Notes: a model not told the origin generated them from the letters alone. DNA of 39,576 nt from an uncultured Gammaproteobacteria bacterium (GCA_913063505.1 CAJXYT010000010.1:1-39576), one strand, 5' to 3'; shown: positions 4,965-34,627, numbered from the stretch's first letter. Program-made: numbers and translations.

Positions 4965-5486
4965 TTAGTCTTTCTTAGCTGCCGGTTTCTTGGTAGCTGT
5001 TTTCTTAGGAGCTGCTTTCTTAGGAGCCGCTTTCTTAGGGGCTGCTTTCTTAGGGGCTGCTTTCTTAGGGGCTGCTTTCTTAGGGGCTGCTTTTTTGGTA
5101 GTCGTTTTCTTGGGAGCCGCTTTCTCGGCTACCGGTACTCCTGCTTCTGCCTTAGGGGTGGCCTTCTTGATGCCACTAGCGCTGATCGCCGTAATCTCTA
5201 CCTCAGTAAAGAACTGGCGGTGCGTGCCCTGACGAAGATAATTCTGACGTCGCTTGAACTTGACGACTGGAACCTTCTTGCTCTTGCCCTGGCGAAGAAC
5301 CTTGCCACTAACAGAGCTGCCAGAAAGAACCGGATTTCCTACTTTAATATCAGCGCCTTCACCGATAAGCAGAACATCATCAAAACTTATTGTTGCGCCC
5401 TCTTCGGCCTCGATTTTCTCGAAACGCAGGACGTCACCTTTTACCGCGCGGTACTGTTTGCCGCCGGTGCGAAAAACCGCATACAT
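4965..5486 (-). CDS. rplU: 50S ribosomal protein L21 with long Lys/Ala/Pro-rich C-terminal extension
   Basis: MYAVFRTGGKQYRAVKGDVLRFEKIEAEEG...VKFKRRQNYLRQGTHRQFFTEVEITAI is L21; the C-terminus is (AAPKK)n. Start at 5486 (ATG), not the 5522 of the ORF track. Confidence 0.95.
   Translation of the reverse strand: MYAVFRTGGKQYRAVKGDVLRFEKIEAEEGATISFDDVLLIGEGADIKVGNPVLSGSSVSGKVLRQGKSKKVPVVKFKRRQNYLRQGTHRQFFTEVEITAISASGIKKATPKAEAGVPVAEKAAPKKTTTKKAAPKKAAPKKAAPKKAAPKKAAPKKAAPKKTATKKPAAKKD
4978..5117 (-). repeat. Tandem 15-bp coding repeat (unit approx. tttcttaggggctgc on + strand, encoding AAPKK)
   Basis: Consecutive near-identical copies of ttcttaggggctgctt/ttcttaggagccgctt inside the 3' end of rplU; divergence is mainly synonymous. 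Confidence 0.85.
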
Positions 5487-5751
5487 GTGTTTACTCCAAT
5501 ACGTAAGTTGCGAAAATTGCAATCTACTGAGAATTAAGACTTTTTTGTGGGTCTGTATAAATACCGCGTAAGCGATTCAATGGCGGGTGCCACAAAAGAG
5601 CGGGAATTCTATAGATTCCGGTGCCCTAGGTCAACGTACATCACTCCTGAAATCTAACCTTATTTCAATAGCTTGCAATATCGCCCTAAGAGGTAGAAAA
5701 AGCGTACAAATGTCGCCAATTTCGTAGCTTTCGGGCATTATCACGAATCTC

Positions 5752-13225: not shown

Positions 13226-14013
13226 TTGTCGAACAGATCTGGACGGGCAACAGTCTGCGAAACTTCAATTATCTGATTGTGTGCCCGGAAACTGGAGACG
13301 CGCTTGCGATCGATCCTCTCGACTACAAGACGTGCCTCAACATCGCTGCCGAACGCGGTTGGCAAATTACACAGATTCTGAACACCCATGAACACGCAGA
13401 CCATATTGGTGGCAATAAAGGCATCGTTAATGCGACCGGCGCGAAAGTAATAGCCCATGAATTGGCGTATGACAGGATTCCGAATATGGATCGTGGTGTC
13501 GGGGCCGGCGACATCATTAAGGTTGGAAAATCAGTGGAGCTGGAGTGTCTGGATACTCCTGGGCATACCATGAGCCACATTTGCCTGTTATCGCAAACGG
13601 ATCATCCTGGCTTATTCAGTGGCGACACGCTATTCAATGCTGGGGCCGGGAATTGCCACAACGGTGGCCACCCCAATCAACTGTTTGACACGTTCGAGCA
13701 ACAGCTGGAGACACTGGGTAATGACACTCGCATATACCCTGGCCACGACTACATGATTAACAATCTTGCATTTACCCTGGATCGCGAACCTGACAATGCC
13801 ATCGCGGCAAGCATGTTAGAGCAGTATAAGAATCAGGATCCAGACGACGCTTTGATAACGACGCTGCAGCAAGAAAAAGAAGTTAACGTATTTTTTCGCC
13901 TGGGCAGTCCGTCGGTCATTGCCAAACTCGCAGCAGACTTTCCAGACATCGGCGACAAACCGGACGCGCGCAGTGTGTTCGTGAAACTACGCGAACTCAG
14001 GAATAGTTGGTAG
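13222..14013 (+). CDS. Metallo-beta-lactamase fold hydrolase, hydroxyacylglutathione hydrolase (GloB)-like
   Basis: NTHEHADHIGGNKGI (HxHxDH), DTPGHTMSHICLL, LFSGDTLF, YPGHDYMINNL. Likely GTG start at 13222 overlapping the upstream TGA; the ORF track start 13171 lies in amidohydrolase-derived DNA. Confidence 0.85.
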   Translation: MIVEQIWTGNSLRNFNYLIVCPETGDALAIDPLDYKTCLNIAAERGWQITQILNTHEHADHIGGNKGIVNATGAKVIAHELAYDRIPNMDRGVGAGDIIKVGKSVELECLDTPGHTMSHICLLSQTDHPGLFSGDTLFNAGAGNCHNGGHPNQLFDTFEQQLETLGNDTRIYPGHDYMINNLAFTLDREPDNAIAASMLEQYKNQDPDDALITTLQQEKEVNVFFRLGSPSVIAKLAADFPDIGDKPDARSVFVKLRELRNSW

Positions 14014-14803
14014 CGAGACGCAAAGCGACACTGTCGAGTTCCGCAGGATCGCCGTTAGATCTCGACCCCATCCACAGACAGAGAAGTGCAAGATAGAGTT
14101 TGCGCTGCTGCTCAAGGTGGGCTCGCCAGCGTTGGCCGTCGCCGCCCATATACGCATCGAGAAATACGGTGACCTGTTGATCACTTAATTCGTGATGCTC
14201 AACAATGGTTGCAAGATCAAAGAACGGGTCATTATCCGACGAATACTCCCAGTCCAGAAACATGAGTTCGGGCGTCGTAATAAGGTTGGCCGCGACAAGA
14301 TCATTATGACAGCAGCATAAATTCAGAGGCACTCGCATTCTGGCGGCAATCTCAACGCACTTCTTGGCGACATCAGGTTCAAGCCCTTTGAGGTTATCAG
14401 CGTATAGTTTAGCGGCAACGCTCGCGTCGAACGATCGGCCCGTCAGCGGCAAGGCATGCAATCGTTTCAATGCAGCTGCGATCATTTCGAGATTGCCCGC
14501 TTTGTCCAGGCAGTCTCTAGTCCAGACGACCCCTTCCGTGAATTCAGTGAAGTATAGACCGCTGTCCGCAAGTATCACTTGTGGTGCGAGGCCTGCTTTG
14601 CATGCCATGTTCTGCACATAGGCTTCATCACAACGAGAGTTGAACGGAGCTTCGCGGGGCTCATCGTCAATCTTGAGTACACCGCTCTTTGTGTCTTTTG
14701 TTACTCGCCAAGTGCGATTGGTAAGACCACCTGATAATTCTGACAGTGTCGCACCGTCCCATCCAGGAATATCCGCAAGCACTTGCTCTGGAGTTTGTGT
14801 CAC
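13997..14803 (-). CDS. Choline/aminoglycoside-type phosphotransferase, probable thiamine kinase
   Basis: APH fold: LSGGLTNRTWRVTK, CCCHNDLVAANLI (HxDxxxxN), LMFLDWEYSSDNDPFFDLATI; last gene of the TPP-riboswitch operon. Confidence 0.8.
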   Translation of the reverse strand: MTQTPEQVLADIPGWDGATLSELSGGLTNRTWRVTKDTKSGVLKIDDEPREAPFNSRCDEAYVQNMACKAGLAPQVILADSGLYFTEFTEGVVWTRDCLDKAGNLEMIAAALKRLHALPLTGRSFDASVAAKLYADNLKGLEPDVAKKCVEIAARMRVPLNLCCCHNDLVAANLITTPELMFLDWEYSSDNDPFFDLATIVEHHELSDQQVTVFLDAYMGGDGQRWRAHLEQQRKLYLALLCLWMGSRSNGDPAELDSVALRLATNYS

Positions 14804-15405
14804 CGCGACTGATTGTGCATAGATTTGGTCCAGCTGAACAGGCCAATAGGAATCATGATGAAATAGATTACAAATAGGACACTGGTCAATTTCAGATCAC
14901 GGGACCAGTAGATGAATATCGATGCCAAATCGATCAGAAGCCAGTACCACCAGTTTTCCAACACCTTCTGAGCGATCAGGTAAGTAGCCCAAATCGCGAA
15001 CCAAGTCGTGAGTGAATCTATGAACGGAAACGCCGCATCACTATAGATGTAGAGTAAAAGGCCGTTCGCAAGACCCAAGACCACTATGCAGGAAATCGCC
15101 CGAGCATGAATCTTTAACGGCCACGTCACGACCGGCTTGTTGCTGGTGTCGGTGTGGCCAACGTTCCACTGATACCAACCGTATCCTGCCATCACCAAGT
15201 AGAAGACGTTGAGTATCGATTCCATGTACAGCTTGGCTTCGATAAATAACCAGATATAGATAGCTGTACTGATGGCTGCGAAAAACCAGCACACGATCTT
15301 CTCGCGGATGGCGAATGCAAGATAGAGAGCTGCCGCAACAACCGCGACTAGCTCGGGCAGTGATTGCGCCCGTGCCTGGTCGATAATTTCAGCGAAGGCA
15401 GTCAT
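14800..15405 (-). CDS. PnuC/PnuT-like vitamin transporter, probably thiamine (PnuT)
   Basis: YLAFAIREKIVCWFFAAISTAIYIWLFIEAKLYMESILNVFYLVMAGYGWYQW and ENWWYWLLIDLASIFIYWSRDLKLTSVLFVIYFIMIPIGLFSW are PnuC-family motifs; downstream of a TPP riboswitch. Confidence 0.9.
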   Translation of the reverse strand: MTAFAEIIDQARAQSLPELVAVVAAALYLAFAIREKIVCWFFAAISTAIYIWLFIEAKLYMESILNVFYLVMAGYGWYQWNVGHTDTSNKPVVTWPLKIHARAISCIVVLGLANGLLLYIYSDAAFPFIDSLTTWFAIWATYLIAQKVLENWWYWLLIDLASIFIYWSRDLKLTSVLFVIYFIMIPIGLFSWTKSMHNQSR

Positions 15406-15419
15406 TTACTACTCGTATC

Positions 15420-17492
15420 TTAGAACTTCATTTCAATCGTTACGCCAAACTGTCGTGGGTCACCGAAGCGCGTATACAAGGTGTCCGGGAAATCTGGCGG
15501 CTCATTCCCAAAGAAGAAACCTCGGACAGCGTATTCCCTGTTGAACAAGTTTCGACCCCACAACGATATTAGCCAATTCTCGTTTTCATATCCGATCCGA
15601 GCATTCACCAATCTGAAGGAATTCGATTTCTGGTCATGACTTGCCGAAAAGTAGAATTCGTCTTTGGCTGTTGCATCAACTCTTGCAAACATTCCGCTCT
15701 CGGAGCGATACGCTATGCCACCTGCCAAAGTATAGGCTGGCGCGTGAACCTGCTCACGGCCCAACAACGGATCGATACCCAGATCCGGCGGTACCTTCTT
15801 GAACGCGCCATCAAGCAATCCAAGATTTACGTATAACTCCCAGTCTCGATGCGGTGCCCAACTCAATTCAGCCTCTACGCCGAACATTCGTGACTCGTCG
15901 ACGTTCAGCGTGGCGAAGTCAAACGTTGTTGGGTCGCCCGGGGTCAGCTGAAACGACGTACGCACTTGCTGATCGACTCGCCATTGATGAAACACCGATG
16001 CATTCAGAAACAGTGACTGATTTAGGAGGGCGGTCTTGATGCCGATTTCTACCATCCAAAGCGCCTCGTTATCATAAAATCGAACGTTATCTGGCACCGC
16101 ACCAAGATTGAACCCACTGGCCTTGTAGCCCTTGGATAGACTAGCGAATGCAGCGACCGAATCAGTGAAATCATGAACAATGCCTATCTCGCCGCCCCAT
16201 AAACTCTCAGATGGGTCCGCCGTCAAATCCTCAGTGTCGTGATATTCCGTCGATCGCCGTTCGACTCTCAGACCAGCAGAGATCTGCGTATCACTATTAA
16301 TCTCATTATTGTATTGCCCAAACAGAGACATGTTCGTTGCCTTATAGCCACTGTCAAACGCGTAATCCAGAGTGCTCGAATAATCATAAAGCGGGTCGTA
16401 GTAATTTCCTCGATCCAGTTTCGCGAGTTCATCAGTCAAACTAAGCGCGTACACACCAAATAACCAATGCTGCGTCGCATAACGAAACTCCTGACTCAAC
16501 GTACGACGCTTACGATCATTAAACGCTTCATAGTCGTAGGTAACAGGACCCCAGCTATCATCGTTTCCCCAATCGGCGTCATAGCTGAAATTGATGTCGG
16601 AATTTGCGGCGGCAGTAATCGATGTTAGAGAGCCGCTGCCAAATTCATTCCAATCCAAACGCACGGATGCGCCGATGCTCTCCTGAGCATCCTTGCCGGG
16701 CTTATCGGACAACATTATGTAACTGTTATCGAGAGCAAAAGCGTCGTAGCCATTGTCGATATTGGAATACATCACAGCGATGTTGGCTTCGAAATTAGCA
16801 CTCTTCGCGAACCGTAATCGGGCGCGAATCGTGGACTCATCCCGGCCGTTTGTATCATTAGAATTCAGATAAGTATTATTCCTGAAGCCATCGCTTTCAT
16901 GCTTGTGAGCACTGAGTCTGAACGTTGCAGAAGCACTCTCGTTGAGCGCTCCACCGAATGCCGCTCCCACCGAAAATGCATTGTCCCCGGCAACACCAAT
17001 CTGAACTCGGCCGCTCTGTTCGGCTGATGGTTCAGTCGAACGCATATAGATAAGACCGCCAAGCGCGTTCGCGCCGTAACGGCTGCCTTGAGGCCCTCGT
17101 AATACCTCGATCGACTGCATGTCGAACAATGTGGCGATAGTACCGATACCGCTAAAGTCGATATCATCTATGAGGAAACCGATCGACGGGTTCGGTGCGC
17201 CCTCATATTGTGACGTTTCTCCTACACCCCTTATCTGGAAATACCGCGCCCGGTTTCCATCGCCGGACCAGTTCAGGTTTGGCACCAGATTCACAAGCTC
17301 CTCGAAATGCTGGACAGCCGTTTCTTTAATGAATTCGGCGTCCATGATCATCACACTTGATGGGATTTCTGTCGCAGGACGCCCGCGAAAATCGGCGGTG
17401 ACGATGATCTCGTCCATAATAGCGTCCGCGGCTAACGCCTGCGAGCCGATAAGGCATGTAGCTAAGAGCCACTGATGGGTCTTTGTAGTCAA
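15420..17492 (-). CDS. TonB-dependent outer membrane receptor, predicted thiamine uptake
   Basis: Signal peptide, plug domain (DEIIVTADFRGRPATEIPSSVMIMDAEFI..., IEVLRGPQGSRYGANALGGLIYMRS), C-terminal beta barrel ending FGVTIEMKF; TTG start directly after the TPP riboswitch. Confidence 0.92.
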   Translation of the reverse strand: MTTKTHQWLLATCLIGSQALAADAIMDEIIVTADFRGRPATEIPSSVMIMDAEFIKETAVQHFEELVNLVPNLNWSGDGNRARYFQIRGVGETSQYEGAPNPSIGFLIDDIDFSGIGTIATLFDMQSIEVLRGPQGSRYGANALGGLIYMRSTEPSAEQSGRVQIGVAGDNAFSVGAAFGGALNESASATFRLSAHKHESDGFRNNTYLNSNDTNGRDESTIRARLRFAKSANFEANIAVMYSNIDNGYDAFALDNSYIMLSDKPGKDAQESIGASVRLDWNEFGSGSLTSITAAANSDINFSYDADWGNDDSWGPVTYDYEAFNDRKRRTLSQEFRYATQHWLFGVYALSLTDELAKLDRGNYYDPLYDYSSTLDYAFDSGYKATNMSLFGQYNNEINSDTQISAGLRVERRSTEYHDTEDLTADPSESLWGGEIGIVHDFTDSVAAFASLSKGYKASGFNLGAVPDNVRFYDNEALWMVEIGIKTALLNQSLFLNASVFHQWRVDQQVRTSFQLTPGDPTTFDFATLNVDESRMFGVEAELSWAPHRDWELYVNLGLLDGAFKKVPPDLGIDPLLGREQVHAPAYTLAGGIAYRSESGMFARVDATAKDEFYFSASHDQKSNSFRLVNARIGYENENWLISLWGRNLFNREYAVRGFFFGNEPPDFPDTLYTRFGDPRQFGVTIEMKF

Positions 17493-17496
17493 AATT

Positions 17497-17575
17497 TCCT
17501 TCCTACGCCGGTATTAGCCGGATCAGGTTCTAAGGGTTCTCGGTACGAGTCTCAGGCCAGAAGGCCACCCCTGTA
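17497..17575 (-). promoter_or_regulatory. TPP (THI-box) riboswitch
   Basis: Minus strand CAGGGGTGGCCTTCTGGCCTGAGACTCGTACCGAGAACCCTTAGAACCTGATCCGGCTAATACCGGCGTAGGAAGG with THI-box signatures GGGGTG, CTGAGA, ACC...GAACCTGATCCGG.TAATACCGGCGTAGG. Confidence 0.95.
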
Positions 17576-17588
17576 ATTTATGCTTTGT

Positions 17589-28252: not shown

Positions 28253-30136
28253 TTGTCGAGTACCAATCAGTTCTCACTACTTGTCCAGCGCCGTTTCTTA
28301 CCATTTTTCTCAACCCAATTTCTAGGCGCACTTAACGACAACATTTTTCGCAATGGACTTGTAACCCTAGTCACATTTCAGGGCATTTCGATCCTAGGTA
28401 TGGATCACACTATCCTGGCGAATGTCGCTGCCTTTTTATTCACCCTCCCGTTCTTTCTATTCTCAGCGACAGCTGGACAGTTCGCAGACAAGTATGAAAA
28501 GTCCATGTTGATGCGGCGTATCAAATTGCTGGAAATTGGCTTGATGTCTTTTGCGGCTATAGCGCTTCTAACTCGACAATATTCGTTACTGCTGTTCGTA
28601 TTGTTTCTAATGGGCTGTCAATCGGCACTTTTCGGCCCCGTTAAATACGCGTATCTCCCGCAGAAACTGCATACGGATGAGCTGGTCGGTGGAAACGCAC
28701 TTGTCGAATCAGGAACCTATATTGCAATTATCGTTGGCTTAATAATCGGCGTCGAGACAGTCGATTTCGAATCTGATCGACAAACCATTCTAGCCTTTGT
28801 TCTTGTTGCAGTATCTTCCATCGGGTACTTGACGAGTCGCCAAGTACCCGTTACAGAAGCCGCGGATCCAAGTCTTAAAATTAATTTTAATACCTGGCAG
28901 GAAACCTGGAACATCGTCAAATTCGCTCGCGAAGAAAAAAGCGTATTTATATCGATACTAGGTATTTCCTGGTTTTGGTTTTTCGGCTCAGCGATGACCA
29001 TCCAAATGCCAGCCTATGCCGCAGATATTATCAACGGTAATGAATCTGTTATTACAAGTTTGTTGGTCGCATTCGCGGTGGGCATCGGACTCGGAGCACT
29101 ACTATGCGAAAGAATGTCCGGTCACCGAATTGAGCTCGGCCTTGTGCCGCTTGGCTCTATTGGAATGAGTGTATTTGCCGTCGATCTTTACTTCGCGCAG
29201 CCTGCAGCTGCAGGAGCAGCCGTCGAATCTGTCGCCGACTTTATCAGTCGTTCTGGCGGTTGGCGCATATTACTCGATCTGGCATTGCTTGGGGTATTCG
29301 GTGGTTTTTATAGTGTACCGCTTTACGCACTAATGCAGAAACGATCACGTCGACAGCATCTCTCGCGTATCGTAGCCGCAAACAATATTCTCAACGCTCT
29401 ATTCATGGTTGGTGCCGTAGTTTTCAGCATTATCATTCTCAAATTAGGATTCTCAATTCCTGAGCTTTTTCTTTTCATCGCAGCATTGAATGCTGTGGTC
29501 GCTATTTATATTTACTCTCTGCTTCCCGAATTTCTTATGCGCTTCCTTGCGTGGTTGATCATCAATGTCGTTTATAGAATTTATCCATCAGGAGTCGAGA
29601 ACATTCCTAAGACGGGACCTGCTGTGGTCGTTTGCAATCACGTTAGCTTCATGGACCCAATAATTCTTGGCGGCTCTGTTTCTCGACCAATGCAGTTTGT
29701 GATGCATTACAAGATCTTCAAGATGCCCTTCTTAAGCTTCATATTTCGTAACACAAAGGCTATTCCGATCGCTTCCAAGAGTGAAGATACCGCCCTGATG
29801 AATGAGGCATTCGAGAAAGTGGATGCAGAGCTTGCGGCCGGCAATATCGTTTGTATTTTCCCGGAAGGCAGTCTAACTGATGATGGTGAGATCAAACGCT
29901 TCAAACCCGGCATTGAGAGGATCATTGAACGTCGGGCTGTTCCAGTTATTCCAGTTGCACTTGGCAGATTATGGGGAAGCTGGTTCAGCCGCCAAAAGAA
30001 TAGTGGTATTCGAACAATACCAAGCCGACTATTCACGCGTGTTCCGGTCATGTTCGGCGAACCGGTCCAGCCCGCGGACGCTTCTGCCGAAAAACTCGAG
30101 CTGTTAGTTAGGACTCTTCGGGGGGACTTGCGATGA
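28253..30136 (+). CDS. MFS transporter (LplT-like) fused to 1-acyl-glycerol-3-phosphate acyltransferase (PlsC-like); no AMP-ligase domain
   Basis: MFS N-terminus FSTQFLGALNDNIFRNGLVTLVTF; C-terminal PlsC motifs VVCNHVSFMDPIILGG (NHxxxxD) and CIFPEGSLTDDGEI (FPEG); TTG start. Confidence 0.9.
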   Translation: MSSTNQFSLLVQRRFLPFFSTQFLGALNDNIFRNGLVTLVTFQGISILGMDHTILANVAAFLFTLPFFLFSATAGQFADKYEKSMLMRRIKLLEIGLMSFAAIALLTRQYSLLLFVLFLMGCQSALFGPVKYAYLPQKLHTDELVGGNALVESGTYIAIIVGLIIGVETVDFESDRQTILAFVLVAVSSIGYLTSRQVPVTEAADPSLKINFNTWQETWNIVKFAREEKSVFISILGISWFWFFGSAMTIQMPAYAADIINGNESVITSLLVAFAVGIGLGALLCERMSGHRIELGLVPLGSIGMSVFAVDLYFAQPAAAGAAVESVADFISRSGGWRILLDLALLGVFGGFYSVPLYALMQKRSRRQHLSRIVAANNILNALFMVGAVVFSIIILKLGFSIPELFLFIAALNAVVAIYIYSLLPEFLMRFLAWLIINVVYRIYPSGVENIPKTGPAVVVCNHVSFMDPIILGGSVSRPMQFVMHYKIFKMPFLSFIFRNTKAIPIASKSEDTALMNEAFEKVDAELAAGNIVCIFPEGSLTDDGEIKRFKPGIERIIERRAVPVIPVALGRLWGSWFSRQKNSGIRTIPSRLFTRVPVMFGEPVQPADASAEKLELLVRTLRGDLR

Positions 30137-33100
30137 GCTTCTCGCGCCAATCGTGAAGCAGCTGATCCTGACTGCCAAACAACCCACTTGCAGCAGACCC
30201 ACCAAAGCTCAGCTCAAGTAGCTCTAGAAACCCGTTTCTCGCAACAGGAAGGTAAATCTTATGCGCCTCGTCCATCATGCCATTGCCCTGTACGATACCC
30301 GCACCTCGCAGTGCACGCGGCACGAATAACGCATCGAGCCAACTCAGCCCGGAATTCGACGAGCTTGCGCGGTGTAACCAGCGGGCAGTTCTAAAGTACG
30401 CACGTGACCCATTCAAGTCGAAGGCTATTTCATGAACATCTGATGGCAATTGCATGGTTGCCGCGCCGATCTGTCCCTCGGCGAGCCGGAACTGACTCGC
30501 TAGATTGTTATTGTCGATAAGGATTAGAATGTTTCCCCTGGGAGACGCACGCAGCAGTTGTATCCCCTCTGGTCCCTGCCACACCTGCTGCATGCCCCAT
30601 CTCTTATCCGGGTCATGACTCAGTAACTGAAGCGTGCCATCCTCTGTGCCTAAGTAGAGATCGCTCTCTCCAGCGAAAGTCATTCCGCTGAATATACTGG
30701 CCGAATCATACTCAGCAACAATTTCTCCATCGCTGACTTCTACGATTGAGACACGACCTGCACTCAGGAGTGCAACATATTCAGAGTTCGCTGAAAAAGC
30801 CATTTGTGAGACTTTCGCTCCCGCGATATTTACAACGTACGGAAGGGGCTCGCCGCTATCAGTTTTCCACAATCGCAATGAATTGTCCGCCGCGATGCTT
30901 GCGGCCATCGAGCCTGTTGGCGAAACATTCAATAGAACAACCTCGCTCGTATGCCCGACAAAACTGACATCATCGCTGATGTCAGCAATATCAGTTAACG
31001 AGGCATCGGGCGGTACAATATGCACATGTCCAGACGGATCTCCAATCACAAGGAACGCTCCATCCGGTGCGGCGACGATCGGACGGTCAGATGCAAAACC
31101 CCATATCGTATGTGACGCAGCCTGCGTTGCATCAACGGAGAGAACGCTGGGTACCGGAACCCGCCACACTCTCGCTTCGCCGGCAGTACTGCCAGTTAGT
31201 AAGACCTGTTCATCCTGACTGAAGGCTAGCAAATCCTTGCTCTGCTCATGCCTGCGCACACCGAGTGGCGGGCCAACCAACAATCCATCCGTACTGCTGA
31301 ATATTTGAAAGCCAGTCTCAGGACGCCCGGCAGCAACAATGTTACCTGAAGGAGAAAACGCCAATTGCCAATGCCCTGCGCCAAACTCCTCTAGCATCGG
31401 TTGCTGTGGATTCGCCACACTCCAAAGCGAAACTCCAACATTGGGGTACACGACGCCCATCGTCGAACCGTTCGCTGACAAGCTGATGGAGCCAGGCTGT
31501 GCTGGCAAGTCAAACTGACCCAGTAATTCAGTCGTTTGCATATCCCAAATACGAACCGCACGATCAAAGTCCGCGACTGCGACACGCCCTCCCGTTGCAT
31601 CAACCGCAACCAGCGCCGGAACACCTGCAACAATGACTTCTGCCACTACGATTGCGTCATCAAGACTCCATAGTTGGAATCGGCTATCCACGTCTCCGCG
31701 GCGCTCGACGAACAGATGTGAACGGTCAGGCGTCAGCACTGCCGTCGTACTCATGGCGCCAACTGCCAGACTCGAAATTTTGTCTCCGGTCGCTGTATCC
31801 CAGATATTTACAGTGTTTTGGGACGCCGTGATCAGTCGATATGCCGACGCGTCGAGTCCAATGAGAACTTCGCTTTCTGGCAATGCGATTGCACGGATTG
31901 GCTCAGCGAATGTCAAATCCCAAACTCGCGCGCTATCACTCTGCACTGCACGCGCCACGGCATACCGGCCGGACGGATCGAACCAGATATTGTCAGTCTC
32001 GCGCTCGACAGGATCGGGAATATTCAGTCCTCGTTGAAAATACTCAACCACGCCCTGTGAATTCAGTTTCAAGTTCCAGCCGACTAGCTGCCCGGCAACG
32101 CCAAGACTCTCGTCGCGGACACTAATGCTCCATGTACCACTTAGCGACTCACCTAAAAGATCGCGAAGTTGCTCAACGGTAATCTGTATGTCGTCATTAT
32201 CTGAGGCTCGCTCCATTCCCGGATCAATCTCTACAGTACGACCGGAAGGTGCTATAACTTTGATACGCAAGTCAGACAGTTGCGCATGGCTAATGGTGAG
32301 CGTGAGTCCTATGCGACTGACCGAGCCTTCACGATCGACTATCACCCGTCGAACAAGGGGACTGACCTCGAGAGCGGTCACCGACCATGCCTCACGTTGC
32401 TGCACTCCTTTTGGCGAATAGGAGAACTGGGAAATCTTGGCACCGACTGACGTCGTCAACACCATGCCACTGGCATCAAAAACCGTGGGCCCATCTGGCA
32501 TCGCAGGAAGAGTCGCTACGAGATAGGGATAGTCCTCGCTTACGAGTGACGCCGCTCGCTGACGCCGAACAGGGGTTGGCAGCACTAGCGCCTGAATCTT
32601 CGCCAAGAGCGCCGCATCTCGATCCTCGATTTGGACGGCCGCTCTCGACTGACGGTCCCAATAACCGGAGATAAATTCGTCGGCAAAACGCGATCCGTCT
32701 GGTAATTCGACAACCAGCGATGCGAGCTGTCCAATTTCCGATTCGTTGTCCGACGAACGAGCACGGCGCTCAAGGAAACCACGATATAAGTTGTCAGCCG
32801 TGTCGACATGGCCAGGAAAGGACCGGTAGTTTTCATATGCCGCCGAGGCCACTGGCAACTCTACCTCGTCAGAGGCGAGCACTCGAACGTACGGATTCGG
32901 TAACCATTGGGTATACCAAAACGGAATCATCGCGAACAACAACAGAACACCCACTACGATTACGGGCACTTTGAAATCTATGGATAGGTTCTCATTTGCC
33001 CATCGCGCTGTGAAAACCATTTCGTACAGCTTGTTGCGAACCTGAAGGTTACTCTCATCGTCTATGACCAACAGGCCGACTGCCATGAGTCGACGTTGAT

Positions 33101-34133
33101 GCTCGGACCCAAGATCAGCAGGAACCTCAACACCCTTGCGTACTTTTCCGTACAGGTTAAGCAGCCCTTCCCGCAACTTGCCATCATTCGCGACGATGCG
33201 ATGGATGTGACTCATGTGAGGTTCACTGTGCAATGCTGCGCGACCAGCGAGTTGCAAGTTCGCGATTCGATCGATCAGCTGCTCAATATTATCCGGGCTC
33301 GGCTCTCGCGCAACCGCTCGGGCAAGCTTCTGACTTAGGTATGGCTGCCCGCTTGTCCAGTAATAGATTCGATCCAGTGCGATCGCCGCATCGTCATGAT
33401 CCAAATTGAGTTCGGTAACGAATAATTCCAAATCTTTCCGTGAAAAATCGTTAAGCGAGACTTGCTGAGTAATATTAAATGGAGACAATTCCGCTTCTTG
33501 CATTAGACTTACTGGGTCGCACTCTCCAAGAAGCACGAAACTCAACCTCGAGAAATCCGGATCAGTCGTACGCGCATTGTGGGCCGCTCGAAAACTCGTC
33601 AGAAGCTGATCAGCGTGGGGCAAGTTCTCAATGCACTGAATCTCGTCGACGAAAACTACGATCGGCTCACTGACATTCGATAAAATGACTTCTGAATAAA
33701 ATTCAAAAAGCCTTTGACGGTTACTCAGAAAAGACTTGTCTTGCCACCACGGTTGTAAGTCGTAGCGAATTCGAAGTTGTCGCAATAATCGATACGCAAC
33801 ACTGTAGTACCAGCGGCCAGAATCGGTCCCACCATCGCGATCTCCGATCTGCGCGAGATCAATGATTGCAACCTTACTCCCCTGAGACTCCAATCGGGCT
33901 GCAGTTGCGGCGATGAGGCTCGATTTTCCGCTTCGGTCGGGAGCAACCACATGCGCGTATCGGCCGGATCTGACAGCATCATAAAGCTGATCATCAGCGC
34001 GCCGCCGAATATAGCCTGCGCGTACAGCGTGCAGCGGCACGCCGACACTAAAGAACTCGCCCATCGTGTCGGAATAAGCGCGCTTTTCATCACGATCTTT
34101 TTCAGTTGAATCCGCGGCCACACTGCATCTCAT
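30108..34133 (-). CDS. Large membrane-anchored multidomain protein: AAA_35/STAND-like ATPase + TM helix + proprotein-convertase P-domain + WD40 beta-propeller
   Basis: Walker A-like APDRSGKSSLI, Walker B IVVFVDEIQCI, AAA_35-type TSGQPYLSQKLAR; TM helix VPVIVVGVLLLFAMIPFWY; P-domain LTLTISHAQLSDLRIKVIAPSGRTVEI...LSGTWSISVRDESLGVAGQLVGWNLKLNSQ; many WD-like repeats (RVWDLTFAEP, NIWDTATGDKISSL, RIWDMQTTELLGQF, RLWKTDSGEPL). Start possibly at M24 (34064). Confidence 0.88.
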   Translation of the reverse strand: MRCSVAADSTEKDRDEKRAYSDTMGEFFSVGVPLHAVRAGYIRRRADDQLYDAVRSGRYAHVVAPDRSGKSSLIAATAARLESQGSKVAIIDLAQIGDRDGGTDSGRWYYSVAYRLLRQLRIRYDLQPWWQDKSFLSNRQRLFEFYSEVILSNVSEPIVVFVDEIQCIENLPHADQLLTSFRAAHNARTTDPDFSRLSFVLLGECDPVSLMQEAELSPFNITQQVSLNDFSRKDLELFVTELNLDHDDAAIALDRIYYWTSGQPYLSQKLARAVAREPSPDNIEQLIDRIANLQLAGRAALHSEPHMSHIHRIVANDGKLREGLLNLYGKVRKGVEVPADLGSEHQRRLMAVGLLVIDDESNLQVRNKLYEMVFTARWANENLSIDFKVPVIVVGVLLLFAMIPFWYTQWLPNPYVRVLASDEVELPVASAAYENYRSFPGHVDTADNLYRGFLERRARSSDNESEIGQLASLVVELPDGSRFADEFISGYWDRQSRAAVQIEDRDAALLAKIQALVLPTPVRRQRAASLVSEDYPYLVATLPAMPDGPTVFDASGMVLTTSVGAKISQFSYSPKGVQQREAWSVTALEVSPLVRRVIVDREGSVSRIGLTLTISHAQLSDLRIKVIAPSGRTVEIDPGMERASDNDDIQITVEQLRDLLGESLSGTWSISVRDESLGVAGQLVGWNLKLNSQGVVEYFQRGLNIPDPVERETDNIWFDPSGRYAVARAVQSDSARVWDLTFAEPIRAIALPESEVLIGLDASAYRLITASQNTVNIWDTATGDKISSLAVGAMSTTAVLTPDRSHLFVERRGDVDSRFQLWSLDDAIVVAEVIVAGVPALVAVDATGGRVAVADFDRAVRIWDMQTTELLGQFDLPAQPGSISLSANGSTMGVVYPNVGVSLWSVANPQQPMLEEFGAGHWQLAFSPSGNIVAAGRPETGFQIFSSTDGLLVGPPLGVRRHEQSKDLLAFSQDEQVLLTGSTAGEARVWRVPVPSVLSVDATQAASHTIWGFASDRPIVAAPDGAFLVIGDPSGHVHIVPPDASLTDIADISDDVSFVGHTSEVVLLNVSPTGSMAASIAADNSLRLWKTDSGEPLPYVVNIAGAKVSQMAFSANSEYVALLSAGRVSIVEVSDGEIVAEYDSASIFSGMTFAGESDLYLGTEDGTLQLLSHDPDKRWGMQQVWQGPEGIQLLRASPRGNILILIDNNNLASQFRLAEGQIGAATMQLPSDVHEIAFDLNGSRAYFRTARWLHRASSSNSGLSWLDALFVPRALRGAGIVQGNGMMDEAHKIYLPVARNGFLELLELSFGGSAASGLFGSQDQLLHDWREKLIASPPEES

Positions 34134-34282: not shown

Positions 34283-34549
34283 ATGGACTTGAGGGAAGCA
34301 GTGAATTATTGCCATAAACACAACCTGGTCGCTCAATCATTGGTCGAAGCCGAAAGGACATTCGGAATTCGAGTTACTTTGCCAGCCGCCGATACTCTGC
34401 GGAATATTCTTGGAGAAAATTGGGAACAGGTGCATTGGTACGCGGGCGAAGCGGAGCGGGACCTTGCGTTCGAAAAAATGGCCGAACACCATGGATACTA
34501 TCGCGACACTGACGCACCAACTCAGGTACTTGAAAAAATATTGCGATAA
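34283..34549 (+). CDS. Small conserved-looking hypothetical protein (80-88 aa)
   Basis: Protein-like composition (MDLREAVNYCHKHNLVAQSLVEAERTFGIRVTLP...VHWYAGEAERDLAFEKMAEHHGYYRD); GTG at V7 has a good SD (GAGGGAAGCAGTG); divergent from the ATPase gene. Confidence 0.65.
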   Translation: MDLREAVNYCHKHNLVAQSLVEAERTFGIRVTLPAADTLRNILGENWEQVHWYAGEAERDLAFEKMAEHHGYYRDTDAPTQVLEKILR

Positions 34550-34627
34550 GAGATTATCGCAGTGCCGCATCGCGTGCGATTCCGGCGCCAATGATCGCCA
34601 GACCTTACTGAGGCGCGAAGCCTGCCT

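Follow-up and report, generated by a model that had tools for sequence, protein, structure and literature searches.

Research on STAND ATPases has concerned cytoplasmic switches, either immune or regulatory. Apaf-1, for instance, is wholly cytosolic and carries a CARD, with neither a transmembrane (TM) helix nor a P-domain. A layout resembling that of the protein described here, in which a cytoplasmic ATPase is followed by one TM helix and a periplasmic binding part, occurs in ExeA/GspA of type II secretion. According to published work, ExeA binds peptidoglycan and is needed for assembly of the ExeD secretin (PMC4098917). P-domains (PF01483) commonly follow the catalytic domain of a protease (PMC9210967).

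Herein, a gene was analysed in a 39,576-nucleotide stretch of DNA from an uncultured Gammaproteobacteria bacterium (the window; GCA_913063505.1, CAJXYT010000010.1:1-39576) whose product combines an AAA_35/STAND ATPase, a TM helix, a P-domain and WD40 propellers. Its parts, and their division by the membrane, exist elsewhere; from sequence comparison, what appears to be new is that the protein has a P-domain, that the partner gene is missing and that the gene is fixed as a core gene of a whole order. If confirmed, a conserved core protein whose sensor lies on the other side of the membrane would show that periplasmic input can drive a STAND switch; it would also provide a testable envelope function for an order to which abundant marine sediment bacteria belong.

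Domain layout and predicted structure

The 1341-codon frame that a sequence-only reading had proposed, with no strand stated, is real and lies on the minus strand (Table 1). AAA_35 (PF14516) matched residues 41-375 and spanned model positions 13-330 of 331 (E 6e-28; 98 bits against a cut-off of 27); the range first given for the ATPase (about 25-380) was off by no more than a few residues. P_proprotein (PF01483) matched residues 607-690 (E 2.5e-12; 47 bits against a cut-off of 21), close to the earlier estimate of about 605-695 (DNA about 32048-32321), and an own-genome search located it on the DNA as tabulated. Many WD40/beta-propeller families matched residues ~720-1250, and no peptidase family was present among the Pfam matches listed for the protein. 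A match to NCBIfam NF048007 (MmpL3/TtfA stabilizer; E 8e-12, 45 bits against a cut-off of 600) was set aside as ordinary propeller similarity. Among 26 homologues, drawn from several of the order's families, AAA_35 and WD40 were detected by Pfam in all and the P-domain in 25, and the domain order was unchanged down to 20-28% identity. Since over 50 loci conserve the arrangement, a chance fusion or assembly join was rejected.

AlphaFold models, built from 53-row alignments, reached a pLDDT of 88 for the part from the ATPase to the P-domain and of 89 (pTM 0.84) for the part after the TM helix. The domain layout was as previously claimed, with a helical linker and a second propeller in addition. 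The winged helix of the ATPase was modelled as helices and a hairpin at residues ~344-372, and the TM segment, earlier put at about 388-407, as a long helix at ~388-410. The linker was all-helical over ~408-531 and was followed by a few strands (538-584) and then by the P-domain; these strands are possibly the first propeller blade, in which case the P-domain may sit inserted within that blade. Outside the P-domain, the WD40 region comprised ~55 strands, corresponding to 13-14 blades, which in the model is two propellers; the WD40 assignment of the sequence-only reading therefore stands, and its single propeller does not. Foldseek matched the ATPase part to SSO1545 (E 7e-9), PABY2304, MalT, CED-4, Avs3, Avs4, Orc/Cdc6 and plant NLRs, and the part after the TM helix to double propellers, the matches including Apaf-1. 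Whole-length TM-scores were low because the domains are placed differently.

Table 1. Features of the locus, with positions counted from the first letter of the window.
Feature	Position	Strand	Basis or remark
AAA_35/STAND gene, 1341 aa	30108..34133	minus	Start uncertain: ATG 34133, conservation from ~residue 25
AAA_35/STAND P-loop ATPase + winged helix, residues 25-383	32985..34061	minus	Pfam, Foldseek
Walker A APDRSGKSS, residues 64-72	33918..33944	minus	Alignment of 53 homologues
Walker B IVVFVDE, residues 158-164	33642..33662	minus	Alignment of 53 homologues
GxP motif of STAND helical domain, residues 262-264 (WTSGQPYL)	33342..33350	minus	G262, P264 invariant
TM helix, residues 387-407	32913..32975	minus	Hydropathy in 53 homologues; helix in AlphaFold model
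Predicted extracytoplasmic all-helical linker, residues ~408-537	32523..32912	minus	AlphaFold models; Cys absent in all homologues
First beta strands, N-terminal to P-domain, residues ~538-584	32382..32522	minus	AlphaFold secondary structure
Proprotein-convertase P-domain, residues ~606-690	32064..32318	minus	Pfam PF01483, own-genome search, 25/26 homologues
WD40-type double beta-propeller, residues ~694-1308	30210..32054	minus	Pfam, AlphaFold pLDDT 89, Foldseek
C-terminal helix, residues ~1322-1333; L1325 and W1329 conserved	30135..30170	minus	Alignment, AlphaFold model
Convergent neighbour, MFS-acyltransferase fusion (LplT-Aas type)	28253..30136	plus	Pfam
Divergent small conserved ORF, 88 aa	34283..34549	plus	Locus comparison
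Terminator-like hairpin after proA, upstream of AAA_35/STAND gene	34542..34561	minus	Consensus match only

Membrane topology and nucleotide chemistry

A strong hydrophobic segment begins at residue 387 (mean Kyte-Doolittle 2.42 over 19 residues). A weaker window near residue 828 was not counted as a TM helix, since it occurs in some of the sequences only and falls in propeller strands of the model. Across 53 homologues, the 15 residues before the TM helix hold a mean of 2.0 Lys/Arg against 1.3 in the 15 after it, these residues being commoner on the N side in 30 sequences and rarer in seven. The distribution of cysteine is far more uneven: the ATPases contain 190 in 19,017 residues (10.0 per 1000), and everything after the TM helix only 5 in 49,252, about a hundredfold fewer: the propellers have 0.15 per 1000 and the 15,132 residues spanning linker and P-domain none. 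The neighbouring ProB, GlpD and LplT-Aas proteins have ~8 per 1000. These homologues are related and do not amount to 53 independent samples; the hundredfold cysteine contrast is nevertheless consistent throughout. Because hydropathy, the positive-inside tendency and cysteine depletion agree, a single-pass inner-membrane protein with an N-in/C-out orientation is a well supported prediction. It bears out, chiefly through the cysteine depletion, the earlier placement of the ATPase in the cytoplasm and of the P-domain and propeller in the periplasm. The extracytoplasmic part would comprise ~930 residues, namely the helical linker, the P-domain and two WD40 propellers.

Within the ATPase, G69 and K70 of Walker A and D163 of Walker B are invariant in all 53 homologues, and residue 71 is Ser or Thr. 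In the WTxGQPYL motif, G262 and P264 do not vary. The position after D163 is looser, with Glu in 34 of the 53, Asp in four, Arg in nine and Gly, Ala, Gln or Ser in six. All nine Arg-164 sequences belong to one family of the order, f15 (L056-L062, L065, L066), and read DRIE, DRVE or similar beside an intact Walker A; plasmid relatives of the downstream-gene class (see below) have DE at Walker B in all cases. Nucleotide binding thus seems to be under selection everywhere and hydrolysis perhaps not: as the Walker-B glutamate is not kept in all families, the conserved activity is probably nucleotide binding rather than continuous hydrolysis. The natural loss of this glutamate in f15 would serve as a ready-made test of the importance of hydrolysis.

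Inheritance, relatives and gene neighbourhood

The source assembly (1.45 Mb, 90% complete) represents a reduced genome in which the gene has been kept. A match was found in 99 of 107 family genomes, two of them weak and partial (G017, G019), leaving ~97 in substance. These homologues are nearly always full length and 41-96% identical, apart from one divergent copy in G001 (25%), and in almost every family genome the gene is the sole AAA_35 gene above the cut-off. It is absent from nine genomes of a small-genome genus (g10) and from G032. Long homologues occur in further families of the order (f2, f3, f4, f6, f9, f11, f15), and a scan of genome contigs matched close relatives only. A search of 399 genomes across the phylum returned, outside the order, only separate ATPase or WD40 pieces and never the full architecture. 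Against the nearest homologue (96% identical), dN/dS is ~0.13, indicating purifying selection. Altogether, this is a vertically inherited, single-copy core chromosomal gene and not a mobile defence gene. Separately, in a small genome of the same genus (G073) the gene is truncated after residue 495, so that the ATPase, the TM helix and part of the linker remain, and LplT-Aas has no acyltransferase half any more (L013 2437-3966, 3996-5339).

A tblastn search of plasmids turned up this type of ATPase, 26-37% identical, in Cyanobacteria, Chloroflexota, Abditibacteriota and one Sphingobium. In several of these relatives the ATPase is followed by a TM helix and then WD40 repeats or CHASE2; others carry PAS/GAF, GUN4 or TPR. 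At five loci the relative's gene lies directly downstream, with a short overlap, of another AAA_35 gene, which in some carries TIR, CHAT or HTH. In an ATPase-domain tree, all sequences of the order form one clade (100/100) that groups with this downstream-gene class, far from the upstream class. Neither P-domain nor helical linker turned up in profile searches of the plasmid AAA_35 relatives, and no upstream AAA_35 partner was found in the family, where there is one AAA_35 gene above the cut-off per genome and no such neighbour at the loci. Hence the protein appears to descend from such a downstream gene, its partner having been lost and a P-domain acquired; this direction of change is inferred.

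Two-gene units were seen on plasmids of Chloroflexota, Cyanobacteria and Abditibacteriota (L135, L136, L138, L139, L141; also L142 and the class loci L108, L121, L133), where an upstream AAA_35 protein overlaps or abuts a downstream AAA_35 protein with WD40, CHASE2, PAS/GAF, GUN4 or TPR. In proteobacterial two-gene cases the upstream gene is different and hydrolase-like. The two-gene units are suggestive of a modular system for conflict or signalling.

These relatives narrow what the sequence-only reading had put forward. It had proposed a candidate undescribed envelope-sensing system: the P-domain version was indeed found only in the order in the phylum-wide search, and no paper on an AAA_35-TM-P-domain-WD40 architecture was found in the open literature (the AAA_35 search gave string matches only), but AAA_35-TM-WD40 and AAA_35-TM-CHASE2 proteins occur in Chloroflexota and Cyanobacteria. 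The same proteins are a precedent for an ATPase and a sensor divided by the membrane, which had been thought unusual, and the word 'system' finds no support, as the gene stands alone without its relatives' partner gene.

A survey of homologue neighbourhoods, as had been suggested, revealed conserved synteny across the order. The broadly syntenic locus runs ilvBH, proBA, glpD, patatin-Omp85 or other genes, often a RIO-like gene, and the AAA_35/STAND gene, beyond which lie LplT-Aas, MscS, Ysc84, M48, LemA and ApbE. The hairpin in Table 1 would separate transcription of the AAA_35/STAND gene from proBA, with the total of such hairpins not above shuffle expectation. The 88-residue ORF has no Pfam match and is kept beside the locus even where the large gene has been lost. 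Elsewhere in the window, a TPP riboswitch (17483-17582, minus; 71.8 bits) directly precedes a TonB receptor (15420-17492, minus), followed by a PnuC-like transporter (14800-15405, minus) and a phosphotransferase/kinase-like gene (13997-14803, minus); judged by gene names read from sequence, this cluster looks like a thiamine uptake operon. An L21-like ribosomal protein ORF (4965-5522, minus) has a long lysine/alanine/proline (PKKAA) repeat tail resembling histone H1.

Possible function and comparison with known systems

The sequence-only reading had suggested a receptor coupling the periplasm to a cytoplasmic NTPase. That remains the most likely explanation, with about an even chance of being correct: an inner-membrane STAND receptor/switch would couple periplasmic binding to cytoplasmic, ATP-dependent oligomerisation. 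The propellers and P-domain may bind a periplasmic, peptidoglycan or outer-membrane partner, and binding or its loss would be relayed through the linker and TM helix. The cytoplasmic STAND module would then change over between two states, closed with ADP and oligomeric with ATP, as in MalT or Apaf-1, with sensor and switch placed, unlike in those proteins, on opposite sides of the membrane; the output would be the cytoplasmic oligomer, acting on a putative partner. The intact STAND features (Walker A, D163, GxP, winged helix and Foldseek matches) argue for such a switch, as do the predicted topology and the core status of the gene. The receptor part is suggested by a receptor-like conservation, the ATPase (mean pairwise identity 0.51) being more conserved than the propellers (0.34 and 0.29; P-domain 0.44), by the Apaf-1 match of the extracytoplasmic model, and by same-branch relatives with different sensor modules at this position (WD40 or CHASE2 behind the TM helix, PAS/GAF, GUN4). 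Counted against it are that no ligand, effector, output domain or partner gene was found, that the relatives' usual upstream AAA_35 partner is absent, and that residue 164 is Arg, Gly, Ala, Gln or Ser in 15 of the 53 homologues and Asp in four. In a more specific and tentative form, the protein would be a membrane-split, Apaf-1-like receptor, that is, a conflict-lineage STAND switch that lost its partner, gained a P-domain and became core to envelope surveillance throughout a gammaproteobacterial order, with transmembrane control of oligomerisation.

The main rival, which we consider rather unlikely, is an ATP-assembled envelope scaffold, where a cytoplasmic STAND oligomer would cluster the periplasmic P-domains and propellers and so build or position an envelope complex. 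Its logic would be comparable to that of ExeA/GspA in secretin assembly, ExeA indicating that such work exists (PMC4098917). A core gene without effector or partner, a relaxed Walker-B glutamate, double propellers and P-domains as binding modules, and envelope genes among the neighbours (patatin-Omp85, MscS, M48 peptidase, LemA, LplT-Aas) are consistent with it. However, the STAND modules studied to date are switches, a conserved switch with more variable propellers resembles a receptor, and the neighbouring genes are not co-operonic with the AAA_35/STAND gene.

It is improbable that the protein is a membrane-bound immune (conflict) receptor sensing envelope damage by phage or toxin, in the manner of other STAND defence proteins. 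Its ATPase does group with AAA_35 proteins behind TIR-, CHAT- or HTH-AAA_35 genes on plasmids and matches Avs3/Avs4 in Foldseek, but single-copy vertical inheritance in nearly all family genomes, fixed synteny across the order, purifying selection, retention in a 1.45 Mb reduced genome and the lack of an effector domain or gene all point away from defence. An anti-phage defence system was rejected: the best PADLOC match, mad8, is weak (E 7e-4, 17 bits over 52 residues), and core inheritance argues against it. Some other function is given a similarly small chance.

A specific tie to phospholipid repair through the convergent LplT-Aas lysophospholipid transporter/acyltransferase is very improbable and was largely refuted by independent occurrence across the order. 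The two ORFs overlap at their 3' ends by 29 bp in the window. In favour of the tie, LplT-Aas or its MFS half lies tail-to-tail with the gene in 27 of 27 family loci examined, the acyltransferase half is also missing wherever a family genome lacks the gene (ten genomes: nine of g10, and G032), and in G073 both genes are cut, LplT-Aas without that half. Against it, many genomes of the order have the gene without full LplT-Aas (e.g. G170, G185, G200, G114, G107, G116), several have LplT-Aas without the gene (G119, G121, G130, G132, G137), and G030 and G070 retained the gene although their acyltransferase half is gone. A single deletion spanning the joined 3' ends would suffice for the joint loss in the family.

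Compared with known systems, the protein shares with ExeA/GspA its layout, whereas theirs is another ATPase family with a peptidoglycan-binding domain, the partner ExeB, and no WD40 or P-domain. Its P-domain, although above the Pfam cut-off, lacks the protease domain usual in P-domain proteins. MalT, SSO1545 and Avs STAND NTPases are alike in ATPase fold and motifs; they are cytoplasmic, with other sensors and outputs. Apaf-1 is similar in combining a STAND ATPase, a helical part and a double WD40 propeller, and was a Foldseek match of the extracytoplasmic model. Members of the same ATPase branch, such as WP_341471937.1 from a Chlorohelix plasmid (AAA_35-TM-WD40) and WP_042158336.1 from Planktothrix (AAA_35-TM-CHASE2), have their TM helix near residue 370, behind the winged helix, with WD40 or an extracytoplasmic sensor following. 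These relatives have no P-domain and no similar helical linker, and they are plasmid-borne second genes of two-gene units, whereas the present protein is encoded by a stand-alone, chromosomal core gene.
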